Below, in pieces: positions 1-33,128 of a stretch of DNA of 33,128 nt (position 1 is its first letter; the number at the start of each line of letters is the position of its first letter). The stretch comes from an uncultured Pseudomonadota bacterium. GTDB lineage: Bacteria; Pseudomonadota; Gammaproteobacteria; CAJXQU01. A model generated the notes under the pieces. The model saw nothing but the letters and a program-made list of their open reading frames with translations. It searched no databases and had not been told where the DNA came from. Position numbers and translations under genes: made by a program. The stretch lies in contig CAJXQU010000022.1 of NCBI GenBank assembly GCA_913058255.1, forward strand, positions 1-33,128. The letters are read 5' to 3'.

Positions 1-55
1 TTTGTATGGAAACACCACCGCTGTAACCACTAATTCCTTCTTGGTATGTGACCGT
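1..55. repeat. 55-bp direct repeat, copy 1 (left edge)
   Basis: Bases 1-55 are identical to 964-1018. In the minus-strand gene both encode the same 18 residues (TVTYQEGISGYSGGVSIQ), which open a domain. The repeat may extend left of the window, since identity still holds at base 1. It ends on the right at base 55, where the two copies diverge (CGCAC here, TTCAT there). Nucleotide identity, rather than only protein similarity, points to recent duplication or gene conversion. Confidence 0.97.
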
Positions 56-1120
56 CGCACTTGAGCCTCCAGTACTGCCACTGCTCACCGTCATGCTAAT
101 ACTGTCACTAACACCACCAGCACTGGCCGTAATCGTATGTGTACCCGCACTTAAACTACTGGTGCTGACTGAACTACCCGAAGCTATCTGACCATCTAGG
201 TTAGACGTCCAAACAAGACTGCTACTAATATCCGTTCCACTGGCATCTGTCGCACTGCCCATAAAGTTAATGCTATCTCCTAGGCTGTAACTACTACCAT
301 TATTCGGCGAGTTAATGGTTACACCGGCTTGACTGCCACTGCCACCTCCTCCAAACACTATTGTCAGCTTCGGACGCATCGATGCATTCCCATGATTCGA
401 GCTCGCGGTAAAACTCTGAAGGTTGGCTACATCATCACCGTGCAAAGCCCAGCCTTGATTCGGACAACTACCTTGTTTAATACACTGAATGTCTTGTGTT
501 ACATCAACTGAATAACTCGTACCTATTCCATCATTTTCTAAGGGACTGAAGGAGCGGCCTATAGCACTTAGCGCACCCTCAATATAGCTAGCTCCTAAAT
601 CCGCCGGTGAGTCCGGATCGGAATTACGCCATTTGGTATCAGGCTCACCAAAAATATCATTGTCGTGCCGTGACTCAACATTCGCTCCGCTGCGATAACC
701 GTCTCCAACGCCCCAACCAGGAAGATCGTTACTATCAGCTAGGTTATCGGGATCTAATATCTGACGAACATAAACTTCAGAAGCGGTACCGTCATTATAG
801 AGAGCACCTTCAGCATGATAAAACGTTAAGGTCGCGCTTTGAACGGCACCATATTGACTTAAGTCTCCTAGCTCAAAATACTCCAAGTTGTAAATCTTTG
901 AATAACCGCTATAACGAAACTCATGATTGGTTAAGCTACTTTCCGTTTGTCGGCCATTATTGATTTGTATGGAAACACCACCGCTGTAACCACTAATTCC
1001 TTCTTGGTATGTGACCGTTTCATCGGCCGATACGGTTGAGTTATAAAAAGCCAATGTAACAAAGAGAAATAGAAAACGAAAAACCGGTTCCTTTAAGAAT
1101 CGGGTTTGGAAGGTATTCAA
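1..1120 (-). CDS. Secreted DNRLRE/Ig-like multidomain protein (3' end outside window)
   Basis: Reading leftward from TTG at 1118-1120 the frame stays open for 373 codons to the window edge, so the C-terminal part is missing. The start is supported by AGGAG seven bases upstream and by a signal peptide directly after it: residues 1-32, basic start, hydrophobic core about 14-26, likely cleavage after VSA. Residues 35-256 begin TVTYQEGISGYSGG and end ASMRPKLTIVF, the pattern of DNRLRE-type beta domains of exported proteins, with Trp- and Gly-rich segments and one Cys pair (C234, C240 approx.). A glycine/serine linker (257-263) leads to an Ig-like domain at about 265-350 (GVTINSPNNGSSYSLGDSI; ends in THTITAS). 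At residue 356 a second copy of the first domain begins. It is divergent from the adjacent T2SS operon, so it could be a substrate of that system. Exact function, adhesin or enzyme, cannot be told from the part visible. Confidence 0.85.
   Translation of the reverse strand, partial: MNTFQTRFLKEPVFRFLFLFVTLAFYNSTVSADETVTYQEGISGYSGGVSIQINNGRQTESSLTNHEFRYSGYSKIYNLEYFELGDLSQYGAVQSATLTFYHAEGALYNDGTASEVYVRQILDPDNLADSNDLPGWGVGDGYRSGANVESRHDNDIFGEPDTKWRNSDPDSPADLGASYIEGALSAIGRSFSPLENDGIGTSYSVDVTQDIQCIKQGSCPNQGWALHGDDVANLQSFTASSNHGNASMRPKLTIVFGGGGSGSQAGVTINSPNNGSSYSLGDSINFMGSATDASGTDISSSLVWTSNLDGQIASGSSVSTSSLSAGTHTITASAGGVSDSISMTVSSGSTGGSSATVTYQEGISGYSGGVSIQ
964..1018. repeat. 55-bp direct repeat, copy 2
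   Basis: This is the second copy of the repeat at 1-55, 963 bp away (321 codons, in frame). It lies just after the signal-peptide coding region of the minus-strand secreted protein. Recombination between the copies would delete one DNRLRE-like plus Ig-like unit without shifting the frame. Confidence 0.97.
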
Positions 1121-1338: not shown

Positions 1339-1764
1339 ATGTCATTACAGAACAAAACAGCTTCTGGATTTTCGTTAATTGAGTTATTGGTTGTGCTCGT
1401 AATCTTGGGGTTGCTCGCTGCAGTAGTGGCACCGAATGTTATGAATAAACTCGGTGGTGCTAAATCGAAAACTACACGACTGCAAATTGAAGAGCTTGGA
1501 GCGGCACTGGATATCTTTTCATTGGAGGTGGGACGTTACCCCTCCTCTGAGGAAGGGCTTAAAGCTCTGGCGATCAACCCGAATAACTCTTCCAACTGGA
1601 ATGGCCCTTATTTGAAAAAGAAAACAGTTCCCGTGGATGCTTGGGGAAATGACTATCATTACAAATATCCGGGCGATCATGGCGATTATGATCTTTATTC
1701 ATTAGGTGCTGATAATAGCAATGGTGGCGAAAAAGATAATGCAGATATTAATAGTTGGCAATAA
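1339..1764 (+). CDS. gspG: T2SS major pseudopilin GspG
   Basis: GspG is the main subunit of the periplasmic pseudopilus that pushes folded proteins through the secretin. The 141-aa product has a short leader ending in G10, then the class III prepilin signal FSLIELLVVLVILGL, with the key Glu at mature position 5 (E15). The globular part has the family features GRYPSSEEGLKAL, WNGPYL, DAWGNDYHY and a C-terminal LGADNSNGGE...DNADI segment, which in this family binds calcium. Length is normal. It is the first gene of the gsp operon. No good -35/-10 pair is obvious upstream, although TATAGT at 1295-1300 could be a -10. The Shine-Dalgarno sequence is weak. The gene needs a prepilin peptidase, which is not in the window. 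Confidence 0.97.
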   Translation: MSLQNKTASGFSLIELLVVLVILGLLAAVVAPNVMNKLGGAKSKTTRLQIEELGAALDIFSLEVGRYPSSEEGLKALAINPNNSSNWNGPYLKKKTVPVDAWGNDYHYKYPGDHGDYDLYSLGADNSNGGEKDNADINSWQ

Positions 1765-1792
1765 TTTGTAGAATTAAGTTACAATTCACTTT

Positions 1793-2296
1793 ATGTTATT
1801 TCTTTTCTCATCTGATATTAAAGGGTTTTCTCTACTAGAGTTATTGGTAGTCCTCGTAATTGTCGGCTTTATGGCTGTATTGATCCCTCCTCGCATCAAT
1901 GGTGCTATGGCTAGCACACAAGCCAAAGCTACAGCCCGTGATGTTATTTCAGCTTTACGGCAAGCCCGAAGTACGGCCATTGTGCGCCAAAAAGAGTTTG
2001 TTTTTAAAGTCGATCTGACCCATAAAACCTATGCGGTTGATGACCATAAAATATATAAAATGCCTAACAAAATGCAAGTTGGTTTATTGACAGCTCGCTC
2101 TGAACAAATCTCTGAGCATGTGGGTGGGATCCGCTTTTTCCCTGACGGTTCATCAACTGGTGGAAGAGTTAGGCTCTCAATGGAAAATTTGACTCTATTT
2201 ATCGATGTTAACTGGTTAACAGGAAAAGTTGCCTTGTTAGAAGATATCAATCCTGAATCAATGGCAATCGGGTATCAATTGGATGGCAACCTTTGA
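1793..2296 (+). CDS. gspH: T2SS minor pseudopilin GspH
   Basis: A 167-aa minor pseudopilin. The leader ends at G11 and is followed by FSLLELLVVLVIVGFMAVL, with Glu at mature position 5 (E16). After the helix come the family-typical stretches ATARDVISALRQARSTAI and a beta-rich C-terminal domain with FFPDGSSTGG. It follows gspG by 28 nt and its stop overlaps the TTG start of gspD by four bases (TTGA), which suggests translational coupling. In the T2SS the minor pseudopilins H, I, J and K form or join the tip of the pseudopilus. Confidence 0.95.
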   Translation: MLFLFSSDIKGFSLLELLVVLVIVGFMAVLIPPRINGAMASTQAKATARDVISALRQARSTAIVRQKEFVFKVDLTHKTYAVDDHKIYKMPNKMQVGLLTARSEQISEHVGGIRFFPDGSSTGGRVRLSMENLTLFIDVNWLTGKVALLEDINPESMAIGYQLDGNL

Positions 2297-4563
2297 TTAA
2301 TCTACCCCCTTTGCAACAGCACAATAAAAATCTTCTACCTTCAAGATCCTTTCCGTCGGATGCTTTGCTTGTCGGATCTTCATTAACGAAAATAGTTATT
2401 TTTATCGGAGGTTTGTCGTTACTGTCTGCCTGTGAAACCTTAGTTGATCACGAACCGGTGGCAGCCGAAGTTAATGCGTTATTACTGGTACAACCAATGC
2501 CAGTGGATTCTACAAAACTGATTGCCAATACCGATCAACTTAAAAGTAATGAATTGGATCTCATTAAAGAAAATCAAAAAAAACAACCTGAGTTCTATTC
2601 TGGCAGCGGTGTTTTTGTTGGTCATTCTCACTATGACGAAGACTCCGCTGACCAACCTGCATCGGTCAGCCCTAAAGAGACTAAAGGTAGCCTAACGCTC
2701 AATTTTCAAGAAACCGATATTCATGAGGTTGTAAAGGTTTTGCTAGGTGATGTGCTAAAGAAAAATTATGTTATTGACCCTGCCGTTACAGGAACGGTCA
2801 ATATTCAAACCAGCAGCCCTTTTTACCGAAAAGACCTGTTGCCTATTCTGAATGATTTACTACACATGTCGGCCGCTACACTGGTTGAGTCCGATAACTT
2901 GATCAAGATTGTTCCTTTGTCGAAAGCCGCTTTATCCTCTTTACCTCCTGTGGTTAGTAATCATATGCTCTCTTCTTCAGGCGGTTTTCACACTCAAATC
3001 GTGCCATTACGTTACATTGGGGCAGAAGAGATTAACAATATATTGCAACCCTTTCTAAAAGATACCATTGCACAAATCTACCCTCAACGTAACCTGATCA
3101 TCCTTTCTGGCGCCCAAACAGATATCAATCGGCTGGTTGAAACTATCCATATCTTTGATGTTGATTGGTTAAAGGGTATGTCGCTGGCCATGGTGCCACT
3201 CAATTATGCTGAAGCAAACGACATTGTTCACGAATTGGATGCTCTATTTGGTCAATCATCTGGAAGTCCTATATCTGCCATTGTACGATTCGTTCCTCTC
3301 GAACGTTTAAATGCGATCATTATCGTCACCCAACAACCTCGTTATTTAAGTGAAATGAGCCATTGGATCCAACGGTTAGATCGTTCCGATGGCATTGATG
3401 GTCAACAACTGTATGTTTATCCCGTTCAAAATAAACATGCGGGTGAGCTGGCAGTTGTCCTGAATAGTATTTTCTCAGATCAAAATAACAGCTCGCCTCA
3501 ATATGTCAGGCCAGAACTCGCACCCAACCTTGAACCTGTTCAACTCGAAAGCGACCCAAACAATACCAATCAGCAAGTTGGTCTCGATAATCAAACTGTA
3601 GCATCTACGAGCACAACACCTATAGTAGCCGGAAAAGGTATCGTTTTGCCTAGTGCCAACTCGATAAAAATTATTGCCGATGAAACGAACAATTCCCTTG
3701 TTATCTTAGCTTCACCATCTGATTACCACATGATTGAGAGCGCTTTGCATAAACTGGATGTCACCCCTCTGCAAGTGCTGATAGAGGCTAGTATTATTGA
3801 AGTAACACTGACAGACGAGCTGAGCTATGGCCTTGAGTGGTTCTTCAAAAATAATACTGGGATCAGTCATAAAAATGGAGTTGCTTCACTCGATCTCGGA
3901 TCCGCGGGGCTGTCCGCGATATCTCCAGGGTTTTCTTATGGAATTGTCGATGCCGCTGGTGCTGTCAGAGGCGTCTTAAACACCCTCGCCAATGAGTCAA
4001 AAGTTAATGTACTTTCTTCACCATCCTTGATGGTCTTGGATAATCATACCGCGACGATTAACATAGGTGATCAAGTTCCTATTCTTACCAGTCAATCTAC
4101 CAGCAACGTAACCAATGATGCGCGTACTATCAACCAGGTTGAGTACCGAGATACAGGGGTCTTAATGACTGTCACACCTCGCGTCAATTCCAGTGGTTTA
4201 ATCATTATGGATATCATTCAGGAAGTTACCGATGTTGCAGCAACCAATAGTTCAGGGATCGATGCGCCAACCTTCCAACGGCGAAGTATCGAAAGCACAA
4301 TCTCCGTCAACACTGACAATACTATTGTCCTAGGAGGGTTGATCCGAGATAACCGTTCTAAAAGTAAAAGTGGAATTCCTGGTTTGCATAAAATGCCATT
4401 TATTGGACCTTTGTTTGGACAGACTGCCGACAATCTTCGCCGTACTGAGTTAGTCGTACTGCTTACGCCCCGCGTGATCCGGAATGATCAGGACGCTTGG
4501 GAAATTACCAATGAATTCAAACAAAAATTAAAAGATCTGCGCCATAATATTGATGAAATTTAA
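2293..4563 (+). CDS. gspD: T2SS outer-membrane secretin GspD, lipoprotein type
   Basis: GspD forms the ring-shaped outer-membrane channel. The 756-aa product has an N-terminal hydrophobic segment ending in a lipobox, LSAC with C47 and Glu at +2, so it is probably lipidated and sent to the outer membrane. N-domain repeats follow: LTLNFQETDIHEVVKVLLGD at about 135-155, then VPLRYIGAEEINNILQPFL, VPLNYAEANDIVHELDALF and VYPVQNKHAGELAVVLNSI. The secretin core starts near QVLIEASIIEVTL and includes VPILTSQST, EYRDTGVLMTVTPRV, TIVLGGLI and TELVVLLTPRVI. The TTG start at 2293 has GGATGG nine bases upstream but gives a long 46-residue signal. An internal TTG at 2365 would give a more usual 22-residue lipoprotein signal. 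No GspS-type pilotin gene is nearby, as expected if the secretin is itself a lipoprotein. Confidence 0.95.
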   Translation: MINLPPLQQHNKNLLPSRSFPSDALLVGSSLTKIVIFIGGLSLLSACETLVDHEPVAAEVNALLLVQPMPVDSTKLIANTDQLKSNELDLIKENQKKQPEFYSGSGVFVGHSHYDEDSADQPASVSPKETKGSLTLNFQETDIHEVVKVLLGDVLKKNYVIDPAVTGTVNIQTSSPFYRKDLLPILNDLLHMSAATLVESDNLIKIVPLSKAALSSLPPVVSNHMLSSSGGFHTQIVPLRYIGAEEINNILQPFLKDTIAQIYPQRNLIILSGAQTDINRLVETIHIFDVDWLKGMSLAMVPLNYAEANDIVHELDALFGQSSGSPISAIVRFVPLERLNAIIIVTQQPRYLSEMSHWIQRLDRSDGIDGQQLYVYPVQNKHAGELAVVLNSIFSDQNNSSPQYVRPELAPNLEPVQLESDPNNTNQQVGLDNQTVASTSTTPIVAGKGIVLPSANSIKIIADETNNSLVILASPSDYHMIESALHKLDVTPLQVLIEASIIEVTLTDELSYGLEWFFKNNTGISHKNGVASLDLGSAGLSAISPGFSYGIVDAAGAVRGVLNTLANESKVNVLSSPSLMVLDNHTATINIGDQVPILTSQSTSNVTNDARTINQVEYRDTGVLMTVTPRVNSSGLIIMDIIQEVTDVAATNSSGIDAPTFQRRSIESTISVNTDNTIVLGGLIRDNRSKSKSGIPGLHKMPFIGPLFGQTADNLRRTELVVLLTPRVIRNDQDAWEITNEFKQKLKDLRHNIDEI

Positions 4564-4600
4564 GAAACCTTAGTCGAAAACTTGTAACATAAAATCTCAT

Positions 4601-6310
4601 GTGTACAACGACTTCATGTTAAAATCAGCTAACTGGAATCACTTTTCAAAAGCGTTGGTTTCCTCCAATTTGCTTAAGGCAGAAAGCGTAGTCAAGATTA
4701 CCCAACTTGCCGAGCAGAGCGGTGAAAAGCCACTTAGTTTATTATCGAGTTCGGGGCTTGTATCCGCAACGGCAATCGCCAACCTTTGGGCAGAGATCAC
4801 TCAACTTCCATTGGCCAATATGGACAACCTAGCGGACTATCCTCTGTGTGCCGATCTCCTTACACAAAAGTTTCTTAAGCAACATCAGGTTGTTCCTTTT
4901 GATGAAACAGAAGCATGTATAACTTTTGCTGTAGCCGATCCTAGCGATATATATTGTTTTCAGGCCTTAGAGCTAGCCACAGAAAAAGCGATATCATTAC
5001 TGATATCAACACCAGAAAAAATTGATCAAGCTTTGGAACGGATCTATGTCAATCAGGCTTCATTATCTGAGATCTCTGATGAGATTGTAGAAACAACTCA
5101 AGATGATACTGATGATGTAGAGCGTCTTAAAGATCTGGCTAGTGAAGCTCCGGTAGTCCGGTTGGTAAACTTATTGATCAATCATGCGGTGGAGCTGCGG
5201 GCATCTGACATCCACATTGAGCCTTTTCGAAATAGCTTAAAGGTTCGTTATCGTGTTGATGGGGTGCTTCAAGAAGTTGAGTCTCCCCCTGCTCGTTCAA
5301 CAGCAGCGGTCATTTCACGTGTAAAGATCATGGCGAAATTGGACATCGCTGAACGACGTCGACCTCAGGATGGTCGGATCCAATTACGTATCCATGGTCG
5401 AGATATTGATCTTCGTGTCTCTACAGTACCATCCCTGTATGGGGAAAGTGTCGTCTTACGTATTCTTGATAAGGAGCAGTCATCATTGGATCTCATCAGT
5501 TTGGGCTTCGATGAGGATATTCATCAACAATTTCTATCAACAATTGCTTTACCCCATGGGATCCTGCTAGTTACAGGCCCCACTGGCAGCGGCAAAACCA
5601 CCAGTTTGTATGGTGCTTTACAAGTTCTGAATAGTCCCGATAAAAAAATTATTACTGTGGAAGATCCGGTGGAGTATCAGGTAACAGGGATCACCCAAAT
5701 ACAGGTAAGAACGCAGGTTGATCTAACCTTTGCTAATGCCTTGAGATCCGTTGTCAGACAAGATCCTGACATTATTATGATCGGAGAAATGCGTGATCTT
5801 GAAACCGCATCCATAGCAGTACAAGCAGCATTGACAGGACATCAAGTTTTCTCAACCTTGCACACTAACGATGCCGGGAGTGCAATCACTCGTTTACTGG
5901 ATATGGGGGTTCAAGATTATTTATTAACTTCCACCATCAATGGCATTGTTGGACAACGACTGGTACGAACCTTATGCCAGCATTGCCGACAAGAACAAAC
6001 GGTATTACCTGAGTTAAGAGAAGAACTACAATTAGATCGGCTGGGGTACCAAGATGGTCAATCAATTTATGAGCCGGTTGGTTGTGAACAATGTTCTCAT
6101 AGTGGTTTTAATGGTCGTACTATTATTTTAGAATTTTTAACGATGACAGATACTATTCGACAGTTGATTCTGAATAAAGCAGACAGTACAACCATCCAAA
6201 AAGTGGCCATCGACGAAGGTATGCAATCCATGCGTGGTCATGGCTTGAAAAAAGTCTTACGCGGTGAAACCACTCTAGATGAAGTGCTACGCATGACGCA
6301 AAGGATCTGA
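4601..6310 (+). CDS. gspE: T2SS cytoplasmic ATPase GspE
   Basis: GspE is the hexameric ATPase that powers pseudopilus assembly at the inner membrane. The 569-aa protein has an N-terminal N1E-type domain (about 1-140, MSHA/GspE N-domain pattern), then ASDIHIEPF, the Walker A loop GPTGSGKTT (326-334, K332), the Walker B/Glu segment IIMIGEMRD (catalytic E396, where most relatives have GEIRD), the His-box STLHTNDA, and a zinc-binding tetracysteine C459-x2-C462 and C495-x2-C498. All catalytic parts are present. The start is GTG at 4601 with no clear Shine-Dalgarno. ATG at 4616 is an equally possible start five codons in. It is 37 nt after gspD and its stop overlaps gspF by one base. Confidence 0.97.
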   Translation: MYNDFMLKSANWNHFSKALVSSNLLKAESVVKITQLAEQSGEKPLSLLSSSGLVSATAIANLWAEITQLPLANMDNLADYPLCADLLTQKFLKQHQVVPFDETEACITFAVADPSDIYCFQALELATEKAISLLISTPEKIDQALERIYVNQASLSEISDEIVETTQDDTDDVERLKDLASEAPVVRLVNLLINHAVELRASDIHIEPFRNSLKVRYRVDGVLQEVESPPARSTAAVISRVKIMAKLDIAERRRPQDGRIQLRIHGRDIDLRVSTVPSLYGESVVLRILDKEQSSLDLISLGFDEDIHQQFLSTIALPHGILLVTGPTGSGKTTSLYGALQVLNSPDKKIITVEDPVEYQVTGITQIQVRTQVDLTFANALRSVVRQDPDIIMIGEMRDLETASIAVQAALTGHQVFSTLHTNDAGSAITRLLDMGVQDYLLTSTINGIVGQRLVRTLCQHCRQEQTVLPELREELQLDRLGYQDGQSIYEPVGCEQCSHSGFNGRTIILEFLTMTDTIRQLILNKADSTTIQKVAIDEGMQSMRGHGLKKVLRGETTLDEVLRMTQRI

Positions 6311-7530
6311 TGCCATTATTCCATTACCGAGCTTTGACAGCTAAAGGGGAACCCTTTGAAGGCGAAATGGATGCGGCCAAAAAAGAGGCCGTGATCAGTT
6401 GGTTGCATGAAGCTGGCCAGGTCCCTATTGAGGTAAAAAGCATCAGTAATTCTGCGGTGTCTGTTCAAAAAGCAAAAATTTTTGGTTCAAAAAAAGCTTT
6501 ATCCGCTCAAGACGTAAATTTAATTACCGGTAAATTAGCCATCATGCTACGCGCAGGCCTACCGTTGGATAATGCCCTAGGAATGTTAGCCGATCTAGTG
6601 CCCTCTCGAGCAGGTCAGCAGATTCTTGAAAAAATACAGACTGATGTACAAAATGGTGATCCTCTTTCAAAAGCCATGCAAGCTTACCCTCAGGTATTTG
6701 ACAAACTTTATGTCAACACGCTCAAAGCCGGTGAAGCCGCCGGTGCAATGGACACCGTTCTTGAAAGGTTAGCCGACTATCTCGAGCGAAGTAGGGAGCT
6801 GAAAGAAACTATAAAATCTGCCCTTATCTATCCTGCTATTTTATTCTTTGTAGCACTAGTTTCGCTAGGAATATTATTGATCTATGTCGTGCCGCAGTTT
6901 AGTGACTTGTTTGCAGGTATGGGGCAAGCGATGCCATTACCTACTGCTATTGTGATAGGAGTATCTGAGTTTATTCGACACTGGTGGTGGATGATTCTAC
7001 TGTTGTTAATCGCCGCTTATGCGGCTGCACATTTTATGTATAATCACCCACGAACACGGAAAGTCATTGATCAACGTCTGTTAACAATTCCACTGTTATC
7101 TGATCTGATCAAAAAAATCGAAGTCGCGCGCTTCAGTCGCACACTGGGAACCCTGACCGCTAATGGAGTACCTCTACTGAATGGTCTCAGCATTGTCGCT
7201 GAAACGGTCAAGAACACCGTATTGTCTGAAGCATTGGGTTCAGTGTCAAATCAACTTCGTGAAGGAAAAGGAATGGCGAAACCACTGACCAAGTCGGGAA
7301 TGTTTCCTCAACTGGCGGTGCAACTGATTCATGTCGGTGAAGAGACCGGTGAGTTAGAAAAAATGCTCAACCAATTAGCCGATATTTATGATAATGAAGT
7401 TAAAGAGACAGTTAAACGCCTGCTGACCTTACTAGAACCCGCATTGATCATTGGCCTCGGTGTTATCATCGCAGCGATTATTATGTCTATTTTACTGGCC
7501 ATACTCGGCTTGAATGAATTTGCGGTTTAA
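6310..7530 (+). CDS. gspF: T2SS inner-membrane platform protein GspF
   Basis: GspF is the polytopic platform protein that links the ATPase to the pseudopilus. The 406-aa sequence has two T2SSF cytoplasmic domains (about 70-190 and 270-390), each with the helix pattern ...L..ML.AGLPL..AL and GEEtGeLe...LA. Membrane segments are near 171-192 (YPAILFFVALVSLGILLIYV), 222-242 and 375-400. The end, LLTLLEPALIIGLGVIIAAIIMSIL, is typical. Its ATG overlaps the gspE stop by one base and its 3' end overlaps gspI by 17 nt, so E, F and I are tightly coupled. Length matches the family. Confidence 0.97.
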   Translation: MPLFHYRALTAKGEPFEGEMDAAKKEAVISWLHEAGQVPIEVKSISNSAVSVQKAKIFGSKKALSAQDVNLITGKLAIMLRAGLPLDNALGMLADLVPSRAGQQILEKIQTDVQNGDPLSKAMQAYPQVFDKLYVNTLKAGEAAGAMDTVLERLADYLERSRELKETIKSALIYPAILFFVALVSLGILLIYVVPQFSDLFAGMGQAMPLPTAIVIGVSEFIRHWWWMILLLLIAAYAAAHFMYNHPRTRKVIDQRLLTIPLLSDLIKKIEVARFSRTLGTLTANGVPLLNGLSIVAETVKNTVLSEALGSVSNQLREGKGMAKPLTKSGMFPQLAVQLIHVGEETGELEKMLNQLADIYDNEVKETVKRLLTLLEPALIIGLGVIIAAIIMSILLAILGLNEFAV

Positions 7531-7939
7531 CAGTCAACACTCGGAACGAGGTTTTTCCTTGCTGGAGATCTTGGTCGCTTTTTCGATTCTGGCTCTTAGC
7601 TTGGGCGTTTTATTTCAAATCTATTCACGAGGCTCGCATGTTACGGCCCTATCACGCGATTATTCTCAAGCCCTAATCATTGCTCAATCACAGCTCGCCA
7701 CACTAAAACTAACCGAAGATATTCCTTTCGGTGAAGAAAGTGGAACCAATGAAGAAGGCTTTGACTGGCATCGGCGTGTCTCTATCTATGAAGAAGATGA
7801 AAGTGCAGAAATACCTTTTAAGAAAAAATTTCATTTGGTCCGTATTGAGTTAGATATTCACTGGCAAACACTGGCACGGGAACACAGCTTTATCTTGAAA
7901 TCGTTACGGCTAGTTCCTGTAAACAATGTTCATCAATAG
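7514..7939 (+). CDS. gspI: T2SS minor pseudopilin GspI
   Basis: A 141-aa minor pseudopilin with a leader ending in R12-G13, then FSLLEILVAFSILALSLGV and Glu at mature position 5 (E18). The short GspI-type globular domain contains ALIIAQSQLA and a beta-rich tail with FDWHRRV. It is longer than the shortest GspI proteins but within range. It overlaps gspF by 17 nt and gspJ by 14 nt. In known systems GspI is the core of the I-J-K tip complex. Confidence 0.93.
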   Translation: MNLRFNSQHSERGFSLLEILVAFSILALSLGVLFQIYSRGSHVTALSRDYSQALIIAQSQLATLKLTEDIPFGEESGTNEEGFDWHRRVSIYEEDESAEIPFKKKFHLVRIELDIHWQTLAREHSFILKSLRLVPVNNVHQ

Positions 7940-8663
7940 AAAAGTATCTCGACATAAATTACAGGGTTTCACACTCCTTGAAATCCAGATTGCATTAGTA
8001 CTACTGGTCTTGATCATGGGCGTCTTGTTCAGTGCATTACATCTCGCTTCAAAAAGTTGGCGTGTTGGTCAAGCTCAGAATGAAATGATCGAAGAGAAAC
8101 GTCTAGTGGCTGAATTTTTGCGTGCTCAGATCAGTCAAATAACTCCTCTCTATTGGACTGATACCCGAGGCTCAGCCCTTATCTTTCGTGGCTCAGCTGA
8201 ATCCATACGGTACGTTGGAAAACTTCCCGCTAATAGGAGTTCAAAGACGCTATCGCTGATGGAGTTAATTCTCATTGAAGATACAACGAAGAGACGATTG
8301 GAACTCGGTTATGGCAGACTCGATCCGAATCATTCTCCCTTTACCTCTAACGATGGAGAAATGAAACATACCCTCGTTCTCGATCAGATCAAACAGCTTA
8401 AATTTGAGTACTATGGCCAGCAAAAACTCGGCTCTGGTTCTCCCGAATGGTCAGAACACTGGGAGAGTAAAAAACAACTTCCACAATTGATAAAATGCCA
8501 GATCACCCTACTCAATAACAAACAATGGCCAGAAATGTTCTTTCCCATCCATACGATGAGCACCAATGGCTTTCAACAATTTATCCTGCAAGCATCAACA
8601 AAACACCATCGCACTGGCAGTACCATTAACAACAGGGGTCCCGACATTGAAGCACTGTTCTGA
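7926..8663 (+). CDS. gspJ: T2SS minor pseudopilin GspJ
   Basis: A 245-aa minor pseudopilin. The leader ends at G14, followed by FTLLEIQIALVLLVLIMGV with Glu at mature position 5 (E19). The larger globular domain has LRAQISQITPLYW, LIFRGSAESIRYVG and LKFEYYGQ...PEWSEHWE, which is the GspJ layout, so it is distinguished from GspI by size and by these blocks. It overlaps gspI by 14 nt. Its last 17 nt probably overlap the true start of gspK. Confidence 0.92.
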   Translation: MFINRKVSRHKLQGFTLLEIQIALVLLVLIMGVLFSALHLASKSWRVGQAQNEMIEEKRLVAEFLRAQISQITPLYWTDTRGSALIFRGSAESIRYVGKLPANRSSKTLSLMELILIEDTTKRRLELGYGRLDPNHSPFTSNDGEMKHTLVLDQIKQLKFEYYGQQKLGSGSPEWSEHWESKKQLPQLIKCQITLLNNKQWPEMFFPIHTMSTNGFQQFILQASTKHHRTGSTINNRGPDIEALF

Positions 8664-9603
8664 GAGCTCGAATAAACAGCATGGGATCGCTCTCGTAATC
8701 GTTCTGTGGATGCTGGCACTAATGACCATTATTGCCTTGGCTTATTCAAGCATGACACGTAACGAAAGCTTGCTGAGTTACAACGGATTACGTTCTGCAC
8801 AAGCCCGAGAAAAAGCTGAGTCGGGGATATGGCTTGTCATTAATGATTTACTTAAACCTATCAATAATCGACGCTTTTTAGTCAATGGTTTACCCGTTCA
8901 ACTCGGAGCTATTTATCCTGAAGATGAATCAGTTCAAGACCTGTTGATCTCAATCCAAGATGAATCAGGCAAGATTGATCTCAATAAAGCTAGCCAACAA
9001 CTTCTCCTCGGTTTGCTCCGTTCAACGGGTGTTGATTCTGATCAGAGTCATCAAATAGTTGATGCGATTCTTGACTGGCGAGACAAAGATAACTTGAGTC
9101 GGCTCAATGGGGCTGAAGATGATGATTATGCAGCCAATGGTTTATCTTATGGTGCTAAAGATGGCCCGTTTAATAGTATTGGTGAGCTACAGCAAGTTCT
9201 AGGTCTGTCCCCTTCAATTTATCAAAAATTGCAGCCTCTCCTCACGGTTCACTCCTTGCAATCCAGAATCAGATTACACACAGCTCCCATTGGGGTACTA
9301 AAAGCACTCCCAGATATGTCTGATGAATTACTAGCCCAGATCATATCAGAACGCAGCACGATGGATACAACTCCCCTCTCCCTTGTTGTTCCAGATGCCT
9401 CTAAAACTCTCGTGTTTACATCAGGACAAGGTAGGGTCTTTTCCATTACCAGTGAAGCGAAGGTTAGTGGTGTAACATCTCGACTGTTGGTAACATTTGC
9501 ACTTAAAAAGAGTAATAACATGCCGATAACGATACTCGACTGGCAAGAAAATGCACCGCTGCTAACCTATCAACCTGAAACCGAACTGGAGCATAATCAA
9601 TAA
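8647..9603 (+). CDS. gspK: T2SS minor pseudopilin GspK (TTG start preferred)
   Basis: GspK caps the pseudopilus tip. The frame is open from ATG at 8566, but that would add 27 untypical residues and a 98-nt overlap with gspJ. TTG at 8647 has AGGGG at 8634-8638 eight bases upstream, and gives a 13-residue leader ending in H-G before IALVIVLWMLALMTIIALA. With this start the protein is 318 aa. The mature N-terminus lacks Glu at position 5 (Ile instead), as is characteristic of GspK. Later blocks are NESLLSYNGLRSAQAREKAESG, a helix-hairpin-helix-like region with KIDLNKAS and ILDWRDKD, and GPFNSIGELQQVLGL. The region is alpha-helical, as in known GspK. The stop is one base from the gspL start. Confidence 0.9.
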   Translation: MKHCSESSNKQHGIALVIVLWMLALMTIIALAYSSMTRNESLLSYNGLRSAQAREKAESGIWLVINDLLKPINNRRFLVNGLPVQLGAIYPEDESVQDLLISIQDESGKIDLNKASQQLLLGLLRSTGVDSDQSHQIVDAILDWRDKDNLSRLNGAEDDDYAANGLSYGAKDGPFNSIGELQQVLGLSPSIYQKLQPLLTVHSLQSRIRLHTAPIGVLKALPDMSDELLAQIISERSTMDTTPLSLVVPDASKTLVFTSGQGRVFSITSEAKVSGVTSRLLVTFALKKSNNMPITILDWQENAPLLTYQPETELEHNQ

Positions 9604-9604
9604 A

Positions 9605-10693
9605 ATGCCATTGAATTCTGAATCATCAATGATCAACTGGTGGCTACAAGGCTTGGGGTTTCTAATACCTACGGAACTTAAAAATCGGTTTAGCCCAATC
9701 AAAAGGCGGATCTTGATCCAGTTACAAGATGAGCAGCTGGCTGTCAACTGGCCATCCCAAGAATCAGACACATCACCTGTTCGATATCACTTATCATTAG
9801 ACAATGAAAGGCAAGAGTTCTCACGGTTACTATCTAAATACAATAAGAAAAAATACATGTTGGTGCTTTGTCTTCCCGCAACAAAAGGGCTGAAGAAATA
9901 TATAAAATTACCACTCAATGCTGAAACCGATCTGGCCAATATTCTTGAATTTGAGTTCGATCGACAAACTCCGTTTACACACGATCAGATCTATTCTGGC
10001 TATCATGTAATCAGTAAGAATAAGGAGAGCAACACTCTCACTATTGAACTAAATGTTGTCCCAAATAAATACCTAGACTCACAGCTAGCTATTTTACAAA
10101 AAGTGGGGATAATTCCACAAGCTGTGGAAATACTATCTGATACCACAACCACAGTACATGGAATTAACGTTCTCCCTGTAGATACTAACAAGAAACAACC
10201 AACAGCAGCTCGGTATGTAAATATGTTTCTTATTCTATTTAGTCTCATATTATTAGGTGTATTGACAGCGCTTCCTTTTCAGAATATTAAGCTCGCAATC
10301 AAACAAACTGAGAAAACTATACAGGAAGCTAGAGTAGATGCTGTGGAAGTAAATAAACTGCGGTCAGAATGGGAAACAATGCAAGAAAGACAGTCTATTG
10401 TGAATAACAAAATTGAGAACCATAGTTCAGTGACAGTACTGCTTGAGGAGTTAACTCGACTGCTTCCGGATGACACCTGGTTAAGTCAATTACACATCAA
10501 AAAAACAACACTTCGCCTACAAGGTGAGTCGGCTGCAGCCACCAATCTAATCAGTCTGATTGAAAACTCTGAGTACTTTTCAGGAACACGCTTTCAGTCT
10601 CCGGTCACTAGCAATTTATCCACTGGCAATGATCGTTTTCAAATCACAACACAGAATAGATCCCAAGCTGTTTCTCAGGTTTTTTCAAAATGA
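9605..10693 (+). CDS. gspL: T2SS inner-membrane assembly protein GspL (PilN-like, XpsL type)
   Basis: GspL recruits the GspE ATPase to the inner membrane. The 362-aa protein has an N-terminal cytoplasmic part with the block LEFEFDRQTPF (114-124), seen in XpsL/PilN-type GspL proteins, a single membrane segment at about 206-225, a coiled-coil-like helix (228-270) and a C-terminal PilN-type ferredoxin-like domain (about 275-345: LLEELTRLLPDDTWLSQL, then LRLQGES). The cytoplasmic domain is not the classic actin-like GspL layout in my reading, so the name rests on the PilN-like part and its operon position. It follows gspK by one base and overlaps gspM by four. Confidence 0.85.
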   Translation: MPLNSESSMINWWLQGLGFLIPTELKNRFSPIKRRILIQLQDEQLAVNWPSQESDTSPVRYHLSLDNERQEFSRLLSKYNKKKYMLVLCLPATKGLKKYIKLPLNAETDLANILEFEFDRQTPFTHDQIYSGYHVISKNKESNTLTIELNVVPNKYLDSQLAILQKVGIIPQAVEILSDTTTTVHGINVLPVDTNKKQPTAARYVNMFLILFSLILLGVLTALPFQNIKLAIKQTEKTIQEARVDAVEVNKLRSEWETMQERQSIVNNKIENHSSVTVLLEELTRLLPDDTWLSQLHIKKTTLRLQGESAAATNLISLIENSEYFSGTRFQSPVTSNLSTGNDRFQITTQNRSQAVSQVFSK

Positions 10694-11280
10694 CATTAAC
10701 GCGTTGGCAACATGCTTTGCTCTCACTGATAATATTGTTCGGAATGATGATGTTAATTCTTCTGGCCTGCGTCAAACCCTCAGTTTCTTATTATCAAGCA
10801 CTGCAAACTGAACTCAACACAAAACAGGAACGTTTACAGCGTTATCGTGCCGTGGCAGCACAACAAGATGAACTTATTCCGTTCTATCAACAACAACTTA
10901 ATAGCCCTCAAGATCAACAATATTTCCTTAAACAAGTAACACCTTCATTAGCTGCTGCAAAACTACAAGAAAAAATCAAATCATTATTAGCTTTGCATCA
11001 AGGACAGCTGATCAGCACCCAAGCTGTTCCCGTACAAAAAGAAGAAATTCTTACCCCCGTGATGATCCGCATTAATATGAAATCTGATATTGAAGCTTTG
11101 CTTAAGATCTTGCATAGTTTGGAATCTACAAAACCTCTGGCATTTATTGATAATCTTCAGATCCAGCGCGTAGGTGGAGCACGAAATAACCATCAACGAA
11201 AGAGCAAGCTTACGATCAAACCTCTCAATACTCGTTTTGATCTCAGGGTTTATATGTTGAATGAAAAGGTAAAGCCTTAA
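10690..11280 (+). CDS. gspM: T2SS protein GspM (GspM-b / XpsM type)
   Basis: GspM is the inner-membrane partner of GspL. The 196-aa protein has one N-terminal membrane helix (about 8-28), a periplasmic coiled-coil stretch (35-65, YYQALQTELNTKQERLQRYR) and a ferredoxin-like C-terminal domain with VMIRINMKSDIEALLKILHS and FIDNLQIQR. This layout corresponds to the GspM-b family found in Xps-like systems. Its ATG overlaps the gspL stop by four bases and its stop overlaps the next ATG by one (TAATG). Confidence 0.85.
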   Translation: MTLTRWQHALLSLIILFGMMMLILLACVKPSVSYYQALQTELNTKQERLQRYRAVAAQQDELIPFYQQQLNSPQDQQYFLKQVTPSLAAAKLQEKIKSLLALHQGQLISTQAVPVQKEEILTPVMIRINMKSDIEALLKILHSLESTKPLAFIDNLQIQRVGGARNNHQRKSKLTIKPLNTRFDLRVYMLNEKVKP

Positions 11281-11930
11281 TGCTAAGCAGTAAACTCACG
11301 ACACTGATCCTTCTCATCACTTGTGCTCTCCTCGGAGGCATGATCAACTACCTGCTTAAGAACCCTCTGGAGTTGACTGCTATATCATCAAAGTCTTCTT
11401 ATGAAGCGTTAAATCTTACAAAAATATCCGTGAGCGAAGTTAACTCACTTGCAAACATACATACTTTTAATCAGGTAGTGGAAAGACCATTATTTTCTAA
11501 CAATAGACAACCTAAAGAGATGGAGACAGTAAAAAAAATCCTTGAGCCTAACGTTGAACCAACCCCGGTTAATAAACCTGCTCTAAAACTGATAGGAATA
11601 GTTTTAAGTGATGAAGATAAAATAGCATTATTTAAAAGTGAAAATGAGTTAAAACTTCAACGTATTCAATTAGGCGAAACCGTTGATGGGTGGAAGCTTA
11701 TCGAGATACACTCTAGCTCGGTTAAGTTAGCTTCAGGAAAAAATAAAATCACTTTTAAAATTTCCAGAAAAAAAGATTCACGGCAGTTGTTAAATACACC
11801 TCCACAACGTTTCATAAATAAGCAATCCATACCGAACCTAAAGATACCTCAGCCTAGCATAGACCCCGTAAACAGTTTGAACATACCTCCTCAAATCCCC
11901 GCAGGGTTACTCAAACCTCCTGTTCAATGA
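11280..11930 (+). CDS. gspN: T2SS GspN/XpsN-like protein with GspC-type HR domain
   Basis: A 216-aa protein that ends the gsp operon. It has an N-terminal membrane helix (8-25), then the block VVERPLFSNNRQP (67-78), which is the hallmark of GspC and XpsN proteins, and a small beta domain at 101-162 (LKLIGIVLSDEDKIALF ... IQLGETVDGWKL ... VKLASGKN) matching the GspC homology region that contacts the secretin. No PDZ domain follows. Instead there is a 50-residue Pro/Asn-rich tail. The operon has no separate gspC, so this protein most likely fills that bridging role. The exact name (GspN, GspC or PilP-like) is a matter of convention. Confidence 0.82.
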   Translation: MLSSKLTTLILLITCALLGGMINYLLKNPLELTAISSKSSYEALNLTKISVSEVNSLANIHTFNQVVERPLFSNNRQPKEMETVKKILEPNVEPTPVNKPALKLIGIVLSDEDKIALFKSENELKLQRIQLGETVDGWKLIEIHSSSVKLASGKNKITFKISRKKDSRQLLNTPPQRFINKQSIPNLKIPQPSIDPVNSLNIPPQIPAGLLKPPVQ

Positions 11931-17143: not shown

Positions 17144-18028
17144 CTACTTTTTCTCAGCAGCGAAATTTGCCAAATATTCTTTGAAATCTTTTTTAAGCTC
17201 TGGATGTTTCAACGCAAATTCTACAGTGGCTTGTAAATAACCCAGTTTTGATCCGCAATCATATCGAGTACCATCAAACTCCCATGCCTGAACTTCTTTC
17301 TTTTCAAGTAAGGTAGCAATCGCATCCGTCAGTTGGATCTCACCACCAGCACCCTTCCCCGTCGTTTCTAAAATACCCATAATGCTAGGAGGAAGAATAT
17401 AGCGCCCTACCACAGCTAGATTTGAAGGAGCCTCCGCAGGATCTGGCTTCTCGACAATACTCATAATACGACTTAGTTTATTATCTATATTTTTGACTTC
17501 AACAATTCCGTATTTATCAGTATCAGCTTGAGGAACTCGTTCTACGGCTATAACACCACTATTATGCCGGTCATAAATCTCAACCATTTGCTTTAGACAG
17601 CCTTTGTTACCGCCATCGATCAAATCATCAGCTAAAAGGATCGCAAATGGCTCATTGCCGATAACAGGTTTCGCACACAAAATCGCATGTCCTAAACCCA
17701 GTGGTTCTGCTTGCCGAATATAAACACAAGAAATGTTAGGTGGCAGAATATTCTGCACGATCTCAAGCATTTCTCTCTTAGCTTTTTTTTCTAATTCAGC
17801 TTCAAGCTCATAGGCCTTATCAAAATGATCAATAATTGAATTCTTGCTACGTCCAGTAACAAAAATAAGCTCGGTAATACCAGCCGCTTCTGCTTCTTCA
17901 GCCGCATATTGAATCAATGGCTTATCAACCACAGGAAGCATTTCTTTGGGGTTTGCCTTGGTTGCGGGTAAAAACCTTGTCCCTAAGCCTGCTACAGGAA
18001 AAACAGCTTTTTTAACAACTGCAGTCAT
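17144..18028 (-). CDS. galU: UTP-glucose-1-phosphate uridylyltransferase GalU
   Basis: GalU makes UDP-glucose from UTP and glucose-1-phosphate, feeding surface polysaccharides. The 294-aa protein has the nucleotide-binding signature [22 protein letters not shown] (residues 12-33), [23 protein letters not shown] with the metal-binding Asp, [20 protein letters not shown], and [12 protein letters not shown]. Complete, usual length. AAGGACG sits nine bases upstream of the ATG. It is the last gene of the leftward polysaccharide operon, 61 nt after the wbpM-like gene. UDP-glucose could supply a uronic acid precursor for the same glycan. Confidence 0.97.
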
Positions 18029-18089
18029 TTTTTATCGTCCTTTTTTAAAGCGTTCGTCATTAGATACTGAGAATATCAGTCTTCCTTTC

Positions 18090-19934
18090 TTAACGAACTG
18101 ATTCATCGTGAATTAATTCTGGTACTAATTCTTTTACTATTTCCAAGGCTTTATGCTCATTATAAACACCGCAAGCAGTTTCAATTTGCTCTACGGTTTT
18201 TTCAAATTTTTGCCAGTCTTGAACACGTTGTTTGGCTAATAGTATCTTTTTATGCTCGGTTGCAACTAGATCTTCTTCGATATGAAACAATTCTTCACTT
18301 AGCTTCTCTCCGGGGCGTAAGCCTGTGAACTGAATATCAATACCTTTATTCGGAACTTTTCCTGAGAGCTTGATCATTTGTTCGGCTAAATACAACACAC
18401 TAACGGGATCACCCATATCCAGTACGAAGATCTCACCTCCCTTGCCCATGGAGCCACTCTGTAAGATCAGCTGACAAGCTTCCGGTATCGTCATAAAGAA
18501 TCGCGTCATTTCTTTATGCGTCACAGTAACCGGCCCGCCTGAGGTGATCTGTTGCTGAAATAATGGCACGACACTACCAGCAGAGCCCAATACATTACCG
18601 AAACGTACCGTAATATATTTTGTCTTTGAAACAGGATTTTTCGCTTCGCATAAAATCTCAGCAATACGCTTACTCGCCCCCATGATACTGCTCGGGTTTA
18701 CTGCTTTATCAGTTGAGATTAAAACAAATTTTTCACTTTCGTATCGATCTGCGGCATCAACGACAATACGTGTTCCGATCACATTATTCCGTAATGCCTC
18801 TCTGATCTGTCCTTGTAGCATAGGGACATGTTTATATGCCGCCGCGTGGAAGACAACTTCCGGCCGAAACGATTTGAAGGCCGCATCGACAGCAACCATA
18901 TCATGCACATCACCTAGCCGAGCTTCGAGTAATAACTCTGGGAACTCTAATTTCAACGTTCGATCAATGCTATAAAGATTAAACTCTCCTTGTTCAAAAA
19001 TCATGATCGAAGCAGGATCAAGCTTAGCGATTTGCCGACAAAGTTCTGAACCTATCGAGCCGCCACCGCCAGTAACAAGAATTCGCTTTCCCGCAATACC
19101 TTCGCTTATTACAGACCAATCAAGCTCAACCTTATCGCGCCCTAATAAATCATCGATAGACACTTCTCGAACATTGTCTAAGCCCCACTCTTCAATATTG
19201 CCAGAATCATCGGTGAACATGGGCAACATTCTGAATGGCTTTCCTGTTTGTTCACATTGAGCAACGATATCTTTTATTTGCCCTTTCGTTGCTGACGGAA
19301 TTGCGATGAGTAGAGAGTTCACTCCTAAGTCGTCAACAGTATCTGCGAGCGAACTCAAACCTCCAACAACAGGAATACCTTGAATTCTGCGTTTATGTAA
19401 TTTGGCATTGTCATCGATAAATCCTACTGCGACATAAGCTGGATCGCGCAAAAGATCACGCGCGACCGTTTCACCGGCACGCCCTGCCCCAATAACCAAC
19501 ACGCGCTCTGCACCTGAGATACTCTTAAAGCTAAGCGTATTATCTTTCCAAAATCGGTACCCGAGTCTTGAACCGCTTAGCAAGAACATTAAGAACACAG
19601 GATAAAAAACGATCACTGAACGCGGAAAGTTATCCAGTCGAGTAATGACAAAGGAAACCAGCACCACGGCCACAACACCAAATGCACTTGCCCGAAAGAT
19701 ATTCCACAGATCAGGCAAGCTAGCGAACCGCCATAAACCTTTATATAGGCCTAGTCTCCAACTGATCAAAGATTGAATAACTATCACAAAAGGGAGTGCT
19801 TTAAGGTTAGTATCCCAAAAGGCCTGAGGTGGCATTGAGAAATTAAACCGAGCAAACCAAGCTAGCTCCCACGCCAACACAACCATAATGAGATCATGTA
19901 AAAAAACCATTATGGTTCGAAAATTAATATTCAT
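18090..19934 (-). CDS. wbpM: WbpM/CapD-family membrane nucleotide-sugar 4,6-dehydratase
   Basis: This enzyme removes water from UDP-GlcNAc (C4, C6) to start synthesis of 6-deoxy HexNAc sugars such as QuiNAc and FucNAc. The 614-aa protein has four N-terminal membrane helices (about 6-28, 45-62, 82-98, 106-122), a first Rossmann-type region with VIGAGRAGE (147-155), and a short-chain dehydrogenase domain with TGGGGSIG (288-295), HAAAYKHVP and STDKAVNPS. The YxxxK motif is replaced by M418-GAS-K422, the known Met-for-Tyr change of this long WbpM class. FTGLRPGEKLSEELF near 536-550 is conserved. It overlaps the wbpL-like start by four bases. WbpM of Pseudomonas is slightly longer (about 665 aa by memory). 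Confidence 0.93.
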   Translation of the reverse strand: MNINFRTIMVFLHDLIMVVLAWELAWFARFNFSMPPQAFWDTNLKALPFVIVIQSLISWRLGLYKGLWRFASLPDLWNIFRASAFGVVAVVLVSFVITRLDNFPRSVIVFYPVFLMFLLSGSRLGYRFWKDNTLSFKSISGAERVLVIGAGRAGETVARDLLRDPAYVAVGFIDDNAKLHKRRIQGIPVVGGLSSLADTVDDLGVNSLLIAIPSATKGQIKDIVAQCEQTGKPFRMLPMFTDDSGNIEEWGLDNVREVSIDDLLGRDKVELDWSVISEGIAGKRILVTGGGGSIGSELCRQIAKLDPASIMIFEQGEFNLYSIDRTLKLEFPELLLEARLGDVHDMVAVDAAFKSFRPEVVFHAAAYKHVPMLQGQIREALRNNVIGTRIVVDAADRYESEKFVLISTDKAVNPSSIMGASKRIAEILCEAKNPVSKTKYITVRFGNVLGSAGSVVPLFQQQITSGGPVTVTHKEMTRFFMTIPEACQLILQSGSMGKGGEIFVLDMGDPVSVLYLAEQMIKLSGKVPNKGIDIQFTGLRPGEKLSEELFHIEEDLVATEHKKILLAKQRVQDWQKFEKTVEQIETACGVYNEHKALEIVKELVPELIHDESVR

Positions 19935-20947
19935 GATGAGTGATACTTATTATATTTACGTCGTATTGCAAGCCACAAGCCTGCACTCAAAATCCCCACA
20001 GCAATAACGATGGGTAATAGCAGCGAATTATAACGCATTGTGAACCATGCCAGTGGCCAGAAAATGGTGATATTGATCACTAAAAATATCAGCGCCAATT
20101 TTTTATGGCTGTTACCTAGTTGTACAAAGCGTTGATAAGCATGGCTGCAATGAGCGGCATACCATTTCTCTCCCTTTCTAAAACGATAGATTAAGGTCAA
20201 GGTTGTATCCCAAAAGAACAGCGCGAGTAAAATAAACCAAACAAGAAGCGGCATCACCCCAGACTGCTCCCCCAGCATAGCCAGAGCGGCGAAAAGGTAG
20301 CCAAGATAACTGCTACCAACATCGCCCATGAAAATTTTTGCAGGTGGCCAGTTCCAAACCAAAAAGCCTGCCGCAGCGCCAAGCATGGCAAGCAGTATTG
20401 AGCCAATGCCTGTCGCGCCTGCGGATAGAAATATAAAAGCCGCAAAACTGCCAGCCGTTAAAGCCTGTACCGTTGCTAGGCCATCCGTGCCATCCATAAA
20501 ATTATAGAGGTTGATCATCCAGACGATCGCTATCACCGCCAGTAATGAGCCGAAGAAACCGAGGTGAACTGTCATCAAACCCAGATCTAGGGACGAAAGC
20601 CCACCTAACCAAAACACTGTCCAACTCGCTGCAGCAAGATGAACCATAGCCCTGATCAAAGCTGAAATATCTTTGTGATCATCTAACCAACCAATCAGTG
20701 CAACCAAACAGCCCCCACCTAAAAGCGCAATATATTGCTCATATTCTAGCCAGTCCAAACTACCTGTAACGATGATGGCCAATAAACTGATCAGAACAAT
20801 ACTCAAACCACCACCCCGAGGGACAGGAATGCTATGCGAACTTCTTTCATTAGGAATATCAATCAGAGATTTCTTGATCGCATAACGACGGATCAAGCCC
20901 GTCAAAAGCACAGATGAGATCAAGCTAATGATGACGATCAGGATCAT
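19931..20947 (-). CDS. wbpL: WbpL/WecA-family undecaprenyl-phosphate HexNAc-1-P transferase
   Basis: This integral membrane enzyme places the first sugar phosphate on undecaprenyl phosphate and so starts each O-unit. The 338-aa, strongly hydrophobic protein (about ten helices) has the family motifs RGGGLSI (44-50), DDHKD (89-93, metal/catalytic Asp pair), NLYNFMDGTDG (146-156), IFMGDVGSSYLG and a late HAYQR in the cytoplasmic loop. The PNERSSHSIPVPRGGG stretch points to the WbpL/WecA branch rather than MraY. Donor is inferred to be a UDP-6-deoxy-HexNAc made by the overlapping dehydratase. Overlaps both neighbours by four bases. Confidence 0.93.
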   Translation of the reverse strand: MILIVIISLISSVLLTGLIRRYAIKKSLIDIPNERSSHSIPVPRGGGLSIVLISLLAIIVTGSLDWLEYEQYIALLGGGCLVALIGWLDDHKDISALIRAMVHLAAASWTVFWLGGLSSLDLGLMTVHLGFFGSLLAVIAIVWMINLYNFMDGTDGLATVQALTAGSFAAFIFLSAGATGIGSILLAMLGAAAGFLVWNWPPAKIFMGDVGSSYLGYLFAALAMLGEQSGVMPLLVWFILLALFFWDTTLTLIYRFRKGEKWYAAHCSHAYQRFVQLGNSHKKLALIFLVINITIFWPLAWFTMRYNSLLLPIVIAVGILSAGLWLAIRRKYNKYHSS

Positions 20948-22080
20948 GTTTTATCCAAAGCAGTTTTGTAAAGATTCAAAGTCTCGTCGATCACTTTCTC
21001 GATAGTAAACTCCTTCTCGACAAGCGCCCGACCTTCATCACCCATTGTCTTACGTAAATCAGGATCCATCAGCAAAGTTTCTATCGCATCAGCTAATGCT
21101 TGAGAATCCTTAACGGGCACCAGCAACCCATTCACTCCATGTTGAACAATTTCACGACAACCCGGTGCATCGGTAGTAACAATCGTCTTTCCACACGCGG
21201 CGGCTTCGATCAACACCTTGGGCAACCCTTCGCGGTAAGATGTCGGTAAACAAACAATATCTGCTTGGCTTAGAACATCAGCCATCTTATCTCTTCTGCC
21301 CCACCACTCGATAACACCGTCTTTATCCCAGTCTGAGAGTAACTCCTCTGAAACCGCTGAAGGATTTTCAATATCAGCTGCTCCTACAAGCACAAACCTC
21401 ACTTGAATACCTTTTCCATTTAAAAGTTGTGCTGCCTCAACAAACTCACTGATACCTTTTTCCCAGATCAACCTAGCAGCCAACATAACAATAGGAATAT
21501 TAGTTTCTAAACTTTTTTGCAATTTAAAGTTAGAAATATCGACGCCAGATCCTCTAATCAGAGCCACCCTATGATGACTCATGATCTTCCCCTTCCTTAG
21601 AGTTTGTAAGTCATCCGGGTTTTGTAAAATTAACCACGTATTTGCTCTAGAGAGCAAATACCGTAAGAATGGCGAGATTATTCTTCTGATCAACCTTGCT
21701 TTTTTTTGTGTAGATGAGAAAACGAAACCAAGTCCGGTTAATGCATTCACAACAGCAGGAGTTCGCGCAAAAAAACTAGCGATAGAACCATACAAAACAG
21801 GTTTAATCGCTACATGATGGACTATGTTCGGTTGATGTTTTTTATATAGTCTATAAATTTGTATGACCGTTTTTAGATCTTGCCAAGGTTTTGTATGAGA
21901 TCGTGCAAAAAGTAATGGTTCCAAAATTAAACCAGCTTCTTCGATTAACTCTTGGTGTTTTCCTATTTGAGTAGCGACGATAACATCAAAACCTGCTTCT
22001 TTTGCAGCACACGCTAATTGCATTCTATGCGAGACAAAGTACCAATCTTCCGTTACTAAAAAGAATAGTTTTGGTTTCAC
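20944..22080 (-). CDS. GT4-family glycosyltransferase
   Basis: A cytoplasmic-face glycosyltransferase that adds a sugar to the lipid-linked intermediate. The 378-aa, GT-B fold protein opens with KLFFLVTEDWYFVSHRMQLA, has the Gly-rich region NALTGLGFVFSS, a second-domain start PIVMLAARLIWEKGI, and the EX7E-type donor site REGLPKVLIEAAACGK with acidic residues seven apart. The C-terminal helix is regular. Donor and acceptor are unknown. The gene lies next to wbpL, so it could add the second sugar. It overlaps wbpL by four bases and is one base after asnB. Confidence 0.9.
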   Translation of the reverse strand: MKPKLFFLVTEDWYFVSHRMQLACAAKEAGFDVIVATQIGKHQELIEEAGLILEPLLFARSHTKPWQDLKTVIQIYRLYKKHQPNIVHHVAIKPVLYGSIASFFARTPAVVNALTGLGFVFSSTQKKARLIRRIISPFLRYLLSRANTWLILQNPDDLQTLRKGKIMSHHRVALIRGSGVDISNFKLQKSLETNIPIVMLAARLIWEKGISEFVEAAQLLNGKGIQVRFVLVGAADIENPSAVSEELLSDWDKDGVIEWWGRRDKMADVLSQADIVCLPTSYREGLPKVLIEAAACGKTIVTTDAPGCREIVQHGVNGLLVPVKDSQALADAIETLLMDPDLRKTMGDEGRALVEKEFTIEKVIDETLNLYKTALDKT

Positions 22081-22081
22081 T

Positions 22082-24034: not shown

Positions 24035-24037
24035 AAT

Positions 24038-32311: not shown

Positions 32312-33128
32312 ATGGTTTCCTTACGACTTTTTTTCTTAATTTCTTTTTTATCCGCCTCAAGCTTGAGCTTCGCTGAATCTTTAGAGTCTCCAAACTCAGT
32401 TGCATTAACCTCCGAATATCTGCCGCTTATACCCGGAAATAGTTGGCGGTACAGAGTCAATGAAGCTAATCCCGTCGCCGTTAAAGAATATACACATACC
32501 GTTCAGCACCAGACTCACTCTATCAATGGTATAGAGGCGGTCACTTTTACAAGCTCTACTACTGCAGAAGATCCTGTATATTCTTACTTCACAAACGACT
32601 CAAATGGACTAAGAGCCCATGGTGGCACATTTCTAGACGAGAATAACCAACCAATAGAAGGTAGGTACAGTCCTCCAATGACATTCCTAGGCCCTCAACT
32701 TATCGTAGGTCAAACCCAAACCAGCTCTGGAACAATTGAATCCGACAACATAAGACCAGAAGATGAGCTTACAATGGAGTATTCATATAGCTCAACCGTC
32801 CTTGGAACAGAAACAGTAACAGTAACAGCAGGTACATTCGCAACGATAAAAGTACAAGATCGCACAACCAGAAAAATTCTTCATCAAGGTATTGTCGTCT
32901 ATGAATATTACTACATTGATACTTCTTGGCTGGCTAAAAATGTCGGTATTGTAAAGGCCACATCCGAAGATGATGAGGGCTTTATTGATTATAGTGAACT
33001 ACTGAGTACGTCTTTCACAGCTCCACCAAGCGGCTCCAATATAAAAACCGACTTCGATGGCGATGGCAAAGCTGACATTCTTTGGCGTAATGGTAGTACC
33101 GGACAAAATTATCTGTACCTGATGGATG
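32312..33128 (+). CDS. Secreted FG-GAP/VCBS-like repeat protein (3' end outside window)
   Basis: From ATG at 32312 (AGGGAG eight bases upstream) the frame is open for 272 codons to the window edge. The first 21 residues are a signal peptide (MVSLRLFFLISFLSASSLSFA, cut about A21). Then comes a beta-rich region of about 200 residues with LPLIPGNSWRYRV and TFATIKVQD, resembling poorly characterised exported domains, and finally TDFDGDGKADILWRNGSTG (246-264), the start of an FG-GAP/VCBS-like repeat with D247, D249, D251 and D255 able to bind calcium. More repeats are likely beyond the window. It lies just outside the rml operon and is probably exported, perhaps by the T2SS here. Role unknown. Confidence 0.85.
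   Translation, partial: MVSLRLFFLISFLSASSLSFAESLESPNSVALTSEYLPLIPGNSWRYRVNEANPVAVKEYTHTVQHQTHSINGIEAVTFTSSTTAEDPVYSYFTNDSNGLRAHGGTFLDENNQPIEGRYSPPMTFLGPQLIVGQTQTSSGTIESDNIRPEDELTMEYSYSSTVLGTETVTVTAGTFATIKVQDRTTRKILHQGIVVYEYYYIDTSWLAKNVGIVKATSEDDEGFIDYSELLSTSFTAPPSGSNIKTDFDGDGKADILWRNGSTGQNYLYLMD

Follow-up and report, generated by a model that had tools for sequence, protein, structure and literature searches.

Exact 55-bp repeat at a contig end as a probable k = 55 assembly break within a gene for a secreted protein with DNRLRE-like and Ig-like domains

An exact 55-bp direct repeat opens the stretch of DNA analysed herein (33,128 nucleotides; "the window"), and very probably reflects a k = 55 assembly break inside a domain-repeat gene. 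This gene would encode a secreted protein of modular build, made of DNRLRE/CBM96-like and Ig-like domains in alternation, and its DNA would hold at least two copies of the DNRLRE-like domain start that match perfectly over 55 bp or more. A short-read de Bruijn assembler (k = 55) would have walked in from the side of the type II secretion system (T2SS) genes, through the signal peptide and the first DNRLRE-like domain to the Ig-like domain, and would there have met the same 55-mer again, at which point the contig ended; the 55 bp would simply be the word length. The true repeat would probably be longer, extending past the contig end into a second DNRLRE-like domain.

Bases 1-55 and 964-1018 of the window are identical at 55 of 55 positions, with an in-frame spacing of 963 bp (321 codons); the identity, coordinates and spacing given in the preliminary description of this DNA are all exact. 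Both copies translate to TVTYQEGISGYSGGVSIQ in the same frame and with the same codons. Such identity is far beyond chance; the 16-mers that recur in the 33,128-bp window, on either strand, number 40 and all form part of this one repeat, with no further exact repeat of 16 bp or more detected there. Across the 2.78-Mb assembly (in which contig C33 reads N), the 55-mer occurs twice, both times in contig C22. The two edges of the repeat are of different nature. Because the bases that follow the copies differ (C at position 56 vs T at 1019), the right edge reflects a genuine boundary in the sequence; it falls where the DNRLRE-like domain begins, in keeping with repetition of whole domains. The window is the entire contig C22 of its assembly (G000:C22:1-33128), its length being that of the full contig, such that base 1 is a physical contig end; the left edge, and with it the number 55, therefore reflects the assembler rather than the DNA.

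The repeat lies in the 5' portion (2-1120, minus strand) of a gene that codes for a modular secreted protein and is open at the contig end. The minus-strand frame begins mechanically at 1135 and runs off the contig, a TTG at 1120, with GAGGAG before it, being the probable start (by eye). The protein opens with a signal peptide ending in VSA (also by eye), followed by a DNRLRE-like and then an Ig-like domain, after which the initial 18 residues of the DNRLRE-like domain recur. The first copy of the 55-mer (964-1018) lies just after the signal peptide and opens the first DNRLRE/CBM96-like domain (359-1018, ~220 aa), of which profiles recognize the C-terminal part only: NCBIfam NF033679 matches the window protein (P0001) at E 5.2e-5 and 23.4 bits, below its cut-off of 34, and matches 359-535 in a search of the own genome at E 1.5e-4 and 22.2 bits, likewise below cut-off. 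The CBM96 profile (Pfam PF24517) gave no match to P0001 at E <= 0.1, nor one at the corresponding place in the own genome at E <= 1. Between the two DNRLRE-like starts, the Ig-like domain (125-322) corresponds to residues 272-337 and is matched by Pfam Big_7 (PF17957; profile positions 3-70 of 70, E 3.1e-4) at 21.8 bits, below the cut-off of 24.1, as well as by matches in other genomes of the class. Since both scores fall under curated cut-offs, the domains are called DNRLRE-like and Ig-like only, and this, along with the CBM96 non-match, counts against the preferred reading. An AlphaFold2 model of P0001 alone has a mean pLDDT of 36.2 and was set aside.

The terminal k-mer of the contig (1-55) constitutes the start of a second DNRLRE-like domain, cut by the contig end; we infer that this second copy is real and would continue as such a domain; the in-frame domain repeat is probably real. 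The DNRLRE domain is described in one source from archaeal and bacterial surface proteins (PMC2447325), and another traces the first CBM96 module to an alginate lyase (PMC9971899). The protein encoded here would function extracellularly, perhaps as a surface protein or one that binds carbohydrates, with export via Sec and possibly through the T2SS encoded next to it.

Each of the 66 ends of the 33 contigs in the assembly was searched for its longest exact match in a pool made up of the terminal pieces, the whole of C22 and the five smallest contigs. With counts as lower bounds given this pool, the longest match was exactly 55 bp at 25 of the 66 ends, both C22 ends included, while matches of 51-54 bp were found at none (0/66); one end had a 63-bp match, inside an 8-bp tandem repeat. 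The usual largest default word of SPAdes is 55, and fixed 55-bp terminal matches are the mark of k = 55 de Bruijn assembly at branch points. Two traits of a k = 55 junction are present here, i.e., the repeat begins at the first base of the contig and its 55-bp length recurs at other ends. In published simulations, as reported in the COBRA study (PMC10914622), contigs broken at repeats share maxK-long end sequences with both metaSPAdes and MEGAHIT. C22 resembles the k-length end overlaps of de Bruijn contigs treated in that study (PMC10914622) in that one fixed exact terminal length is found at many ends; unlike those overlaps, for which the partner lies at the end of another contig, the partner copy for C22 is inside the same contig, 963 bp in.

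The behaviour of such a junction was modelled with a toy k = 55 graph, built from the window gene and random sequence, with the simplified rule that the walk halts before using any edge a second time. Two copies sharing 80, 150, 300, 600 or 900 bp, as well as arrays of 2, 3 or 5 perfect units, stopped in 8/8 constructs with a 55-bp end and a spacing of 963, whereas none of the three constructs sharing 30, 50 or 54 bp broke. A true 55-bp repeat did not interrupt the walk, which counts against the preferred reading, but follows from the walk rule used. In this model, the true repeat is thus at least 55 bp, and longer unless equal to the word size by coincidence. As any longer exact repeat is also cut to 55 bp here, the identity does not support recent duplication or conversion. 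More generally, contigs break at long exact repeats, such that perfectly identical sequence is to be expected at a contig end and provides no date for a duplication.

These results bear on what had been concluded from the repeat beforehand. The preliminary description had proposed an in-frame repeat whose copies enclose one DNRLRE-like plus Ig-like unit, and this part stands; its view that DNA-level identity points to recent duplication or conversion does not, given that 25 of the 66 ends show the same 55 bp, that longer repeats are cut to this length in the toy graph, and that the contig ends at a word-length repeat. Its expectation that recombination would preserve the frame agrees with the in-frame spacing of 963 bp (321 codons), which spans one such unit. 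An assembly artefact had also been named as grounds for refutation; this applies to the length and end point of the repeat, but probably not to the existence of the second copy.

According to the toy graph, the contig sequence is compatible with 2, 3 or 5 units alike and gives no copy number. The contig end could in principle conceal many near-perfect 963-bp DNRLRE-Ig units in a long array, yielding a large surface protein that changes in length by whole units between cells or strains; we consider this version of events rather unlikely.

Comparisons with relatives were made in a set of one genome per species, comprising 369 genomes of the class including that of the window, with two congeners; three genomes were found for the order. 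Neither congener (0/2) had a match to P0001, and no full-length relative was found among the 369 class genomes apart from the window's own. Matches occurred in 12 of the 368 other class genomes, nearly all via the Ig domain only, while the own genome had no second relative at E <= 1. Pattern scans returned 34 stretches in genome contigs and 3 in viral contigs, with none confirmed in either, and a literature search on collapsed adhesin repeats found no papers. CBM96 was present in 26/369 class genomes, of which 8 (G011, G012, G038, G168, G214, G305, G322 and G367) had at least two CBM96 matches, each over more than 100 profile positions, in one open frame.

The one-contig genome G322 encodes a 1524-aa protein (L100:1737-6311) with three CBM96/DNRLRE-type domains and Big_7 pairs between them. 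A similar motif opens each of the three domains (cut by eye), and a home-made profile of these finds the window domain weakly, at 16.5 bits. The G322 protein is like that of the window in domain order, in the similar motif at DNRLRE starts, and in its in-frame units; it differs in having two Ig domains between DNRLRE domains and is only distantly related, with a longest exact direct repeat of 14 bp in the 8 kb examined, unlike the 55 bp of the window. An intact case with a long exact stretch, as in the window, is provided by a 693-bp in-frame repeat in G127 (L141), beside and within CBM96 genes, which is exact over 68 bp, 96% identical over 184 bp and 72% identical over 271 bp; there, the repeated unit is another, unnamed domain, as opposed to DNRLRE-Ig. 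Among 32 loci with CBM96/Ig relatives (29 plus L100-L102, some from one genome), exact direct repeats of at least 55 bp were found at 2 (59 and 68 bp), both in G127; this is a weak lower bound, as only ~1.5 kb on each side of the match was covered for most loci and longer repeats interrupt short-read assemblies. Proteins in which DNRLRE/CBM96 and Ig domains alternate are ordinary.

A chimera or other misassembly would dispense with a second genomic copy altogether, the end of the Ig-like domain having been joined to a domain start in a mixed population or through a chimera formed during amplification or library preparation. Two observations count for such an event and against a k = 55 break. 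First, no left neighbour is present in the bin: apart from C22's own, no readable contig end matches C22 at 25, 31 or 55 bp. Second, a library-adapter motif, which we take to be Nextera-like, persists at 14 other ends of the 66 (two more, those of C33, read N), meaning that the reads were incompletely cleaned. The motif, which should have been trimmed, lies within the first 120 bases of these ends, on C2, C7, C9, C10, C14, C15, C17, C18, C26, C29 and C30 (G000). However, the reading frame is kept across the junction, which sits exactly at the beginning of a domain, a position that few random joins would hit, and the tandem DNRLRE-Ig order is natural elsewhere; a chimera is accordingly improbable.

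More improbable still is that the 55-mer is common to a different gene, with the T2SS side wrongly joined to a unit of the latter. Dispersed repeats do exist in this assembly, as a 55-mer at the far end of C22 recurs in a paralogous gene on contig C4. The C22 gene in question encodes FG-GAP repeats (32312-33128), with 33074-33128 identical to L038 1616-1670 (C4); the C4 gene, also at a contig end, has another N-terminal head and FG-GAP repeat DNA in common with the C22 gene, again cut at 55 bp. Against a wrong join at the left end, the 55-mer studied here is confined to C22, P0001 lacks a second relative in its own genome at the threshold above, and frame and domain order are coherent through 1018. 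Least credible, and highly unlikely, is a true recent duplication or conversion tract with exact identity over just 55 bp, for which the DNA-level identity with the same codons would speak, but which needs both a true length equal to the word size and a left edge equal to the contig end by coincidence. The k = 55 break within a domain-repeat gene remains the reading we favour.

Divergent from the broken gene, and outside the repeat, lies a T2SS operon (1339-11930, plus strand) delineated by Pfam matches and ORFs (GspG, GspH, GspD, GspE, GspF, GspK, PilN-type and GspM-b among others); the secreted protein may be a T2SS substrate. The gspD gene is kept in both congeners. In one of these (G002), lysC, tRNA-Ser and tRNA-Arg are directly followed by gspG; in the other (G001), the lysC block leads elsewhere, and another gene fragment precedes gspG, at a contig end. 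In the window's own assembly, the lysC/tRNA block on C13 is followed by ABC-transporter and NRPS-like genes truncated by the contig end (labels by eye). The tRNA-Arg/gspG site was considered as an insertion hot spot, an idea that was dropped since gene order is simply not conserved. The lysC match contains two TAA codons inside the aligned stretch in the own assembly (L111, i.e., G000:C13:1-8000, at 4528-5760) and one in G001 (L146); the lysC ORFs end slightly earlier than that of G002, probably reflecting just a shorter C-terminus. Farther along the window (17144-28600, minus strand) is a polysaccharide biosynthesis cluster with glycosyltransferases, a flippase-like protein, an asparagine synthase and an epimerase.

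Ultimately, these findings call for caution, in that an exact direct repeat running from the first base of a contig, and as long as the assembler's word, is not to be taken for a biological tract or for evidence of recent duplication. Were the long perfect array to be true, it would add one more length-variable secreted protein, in an order for which only three genomes were found here.
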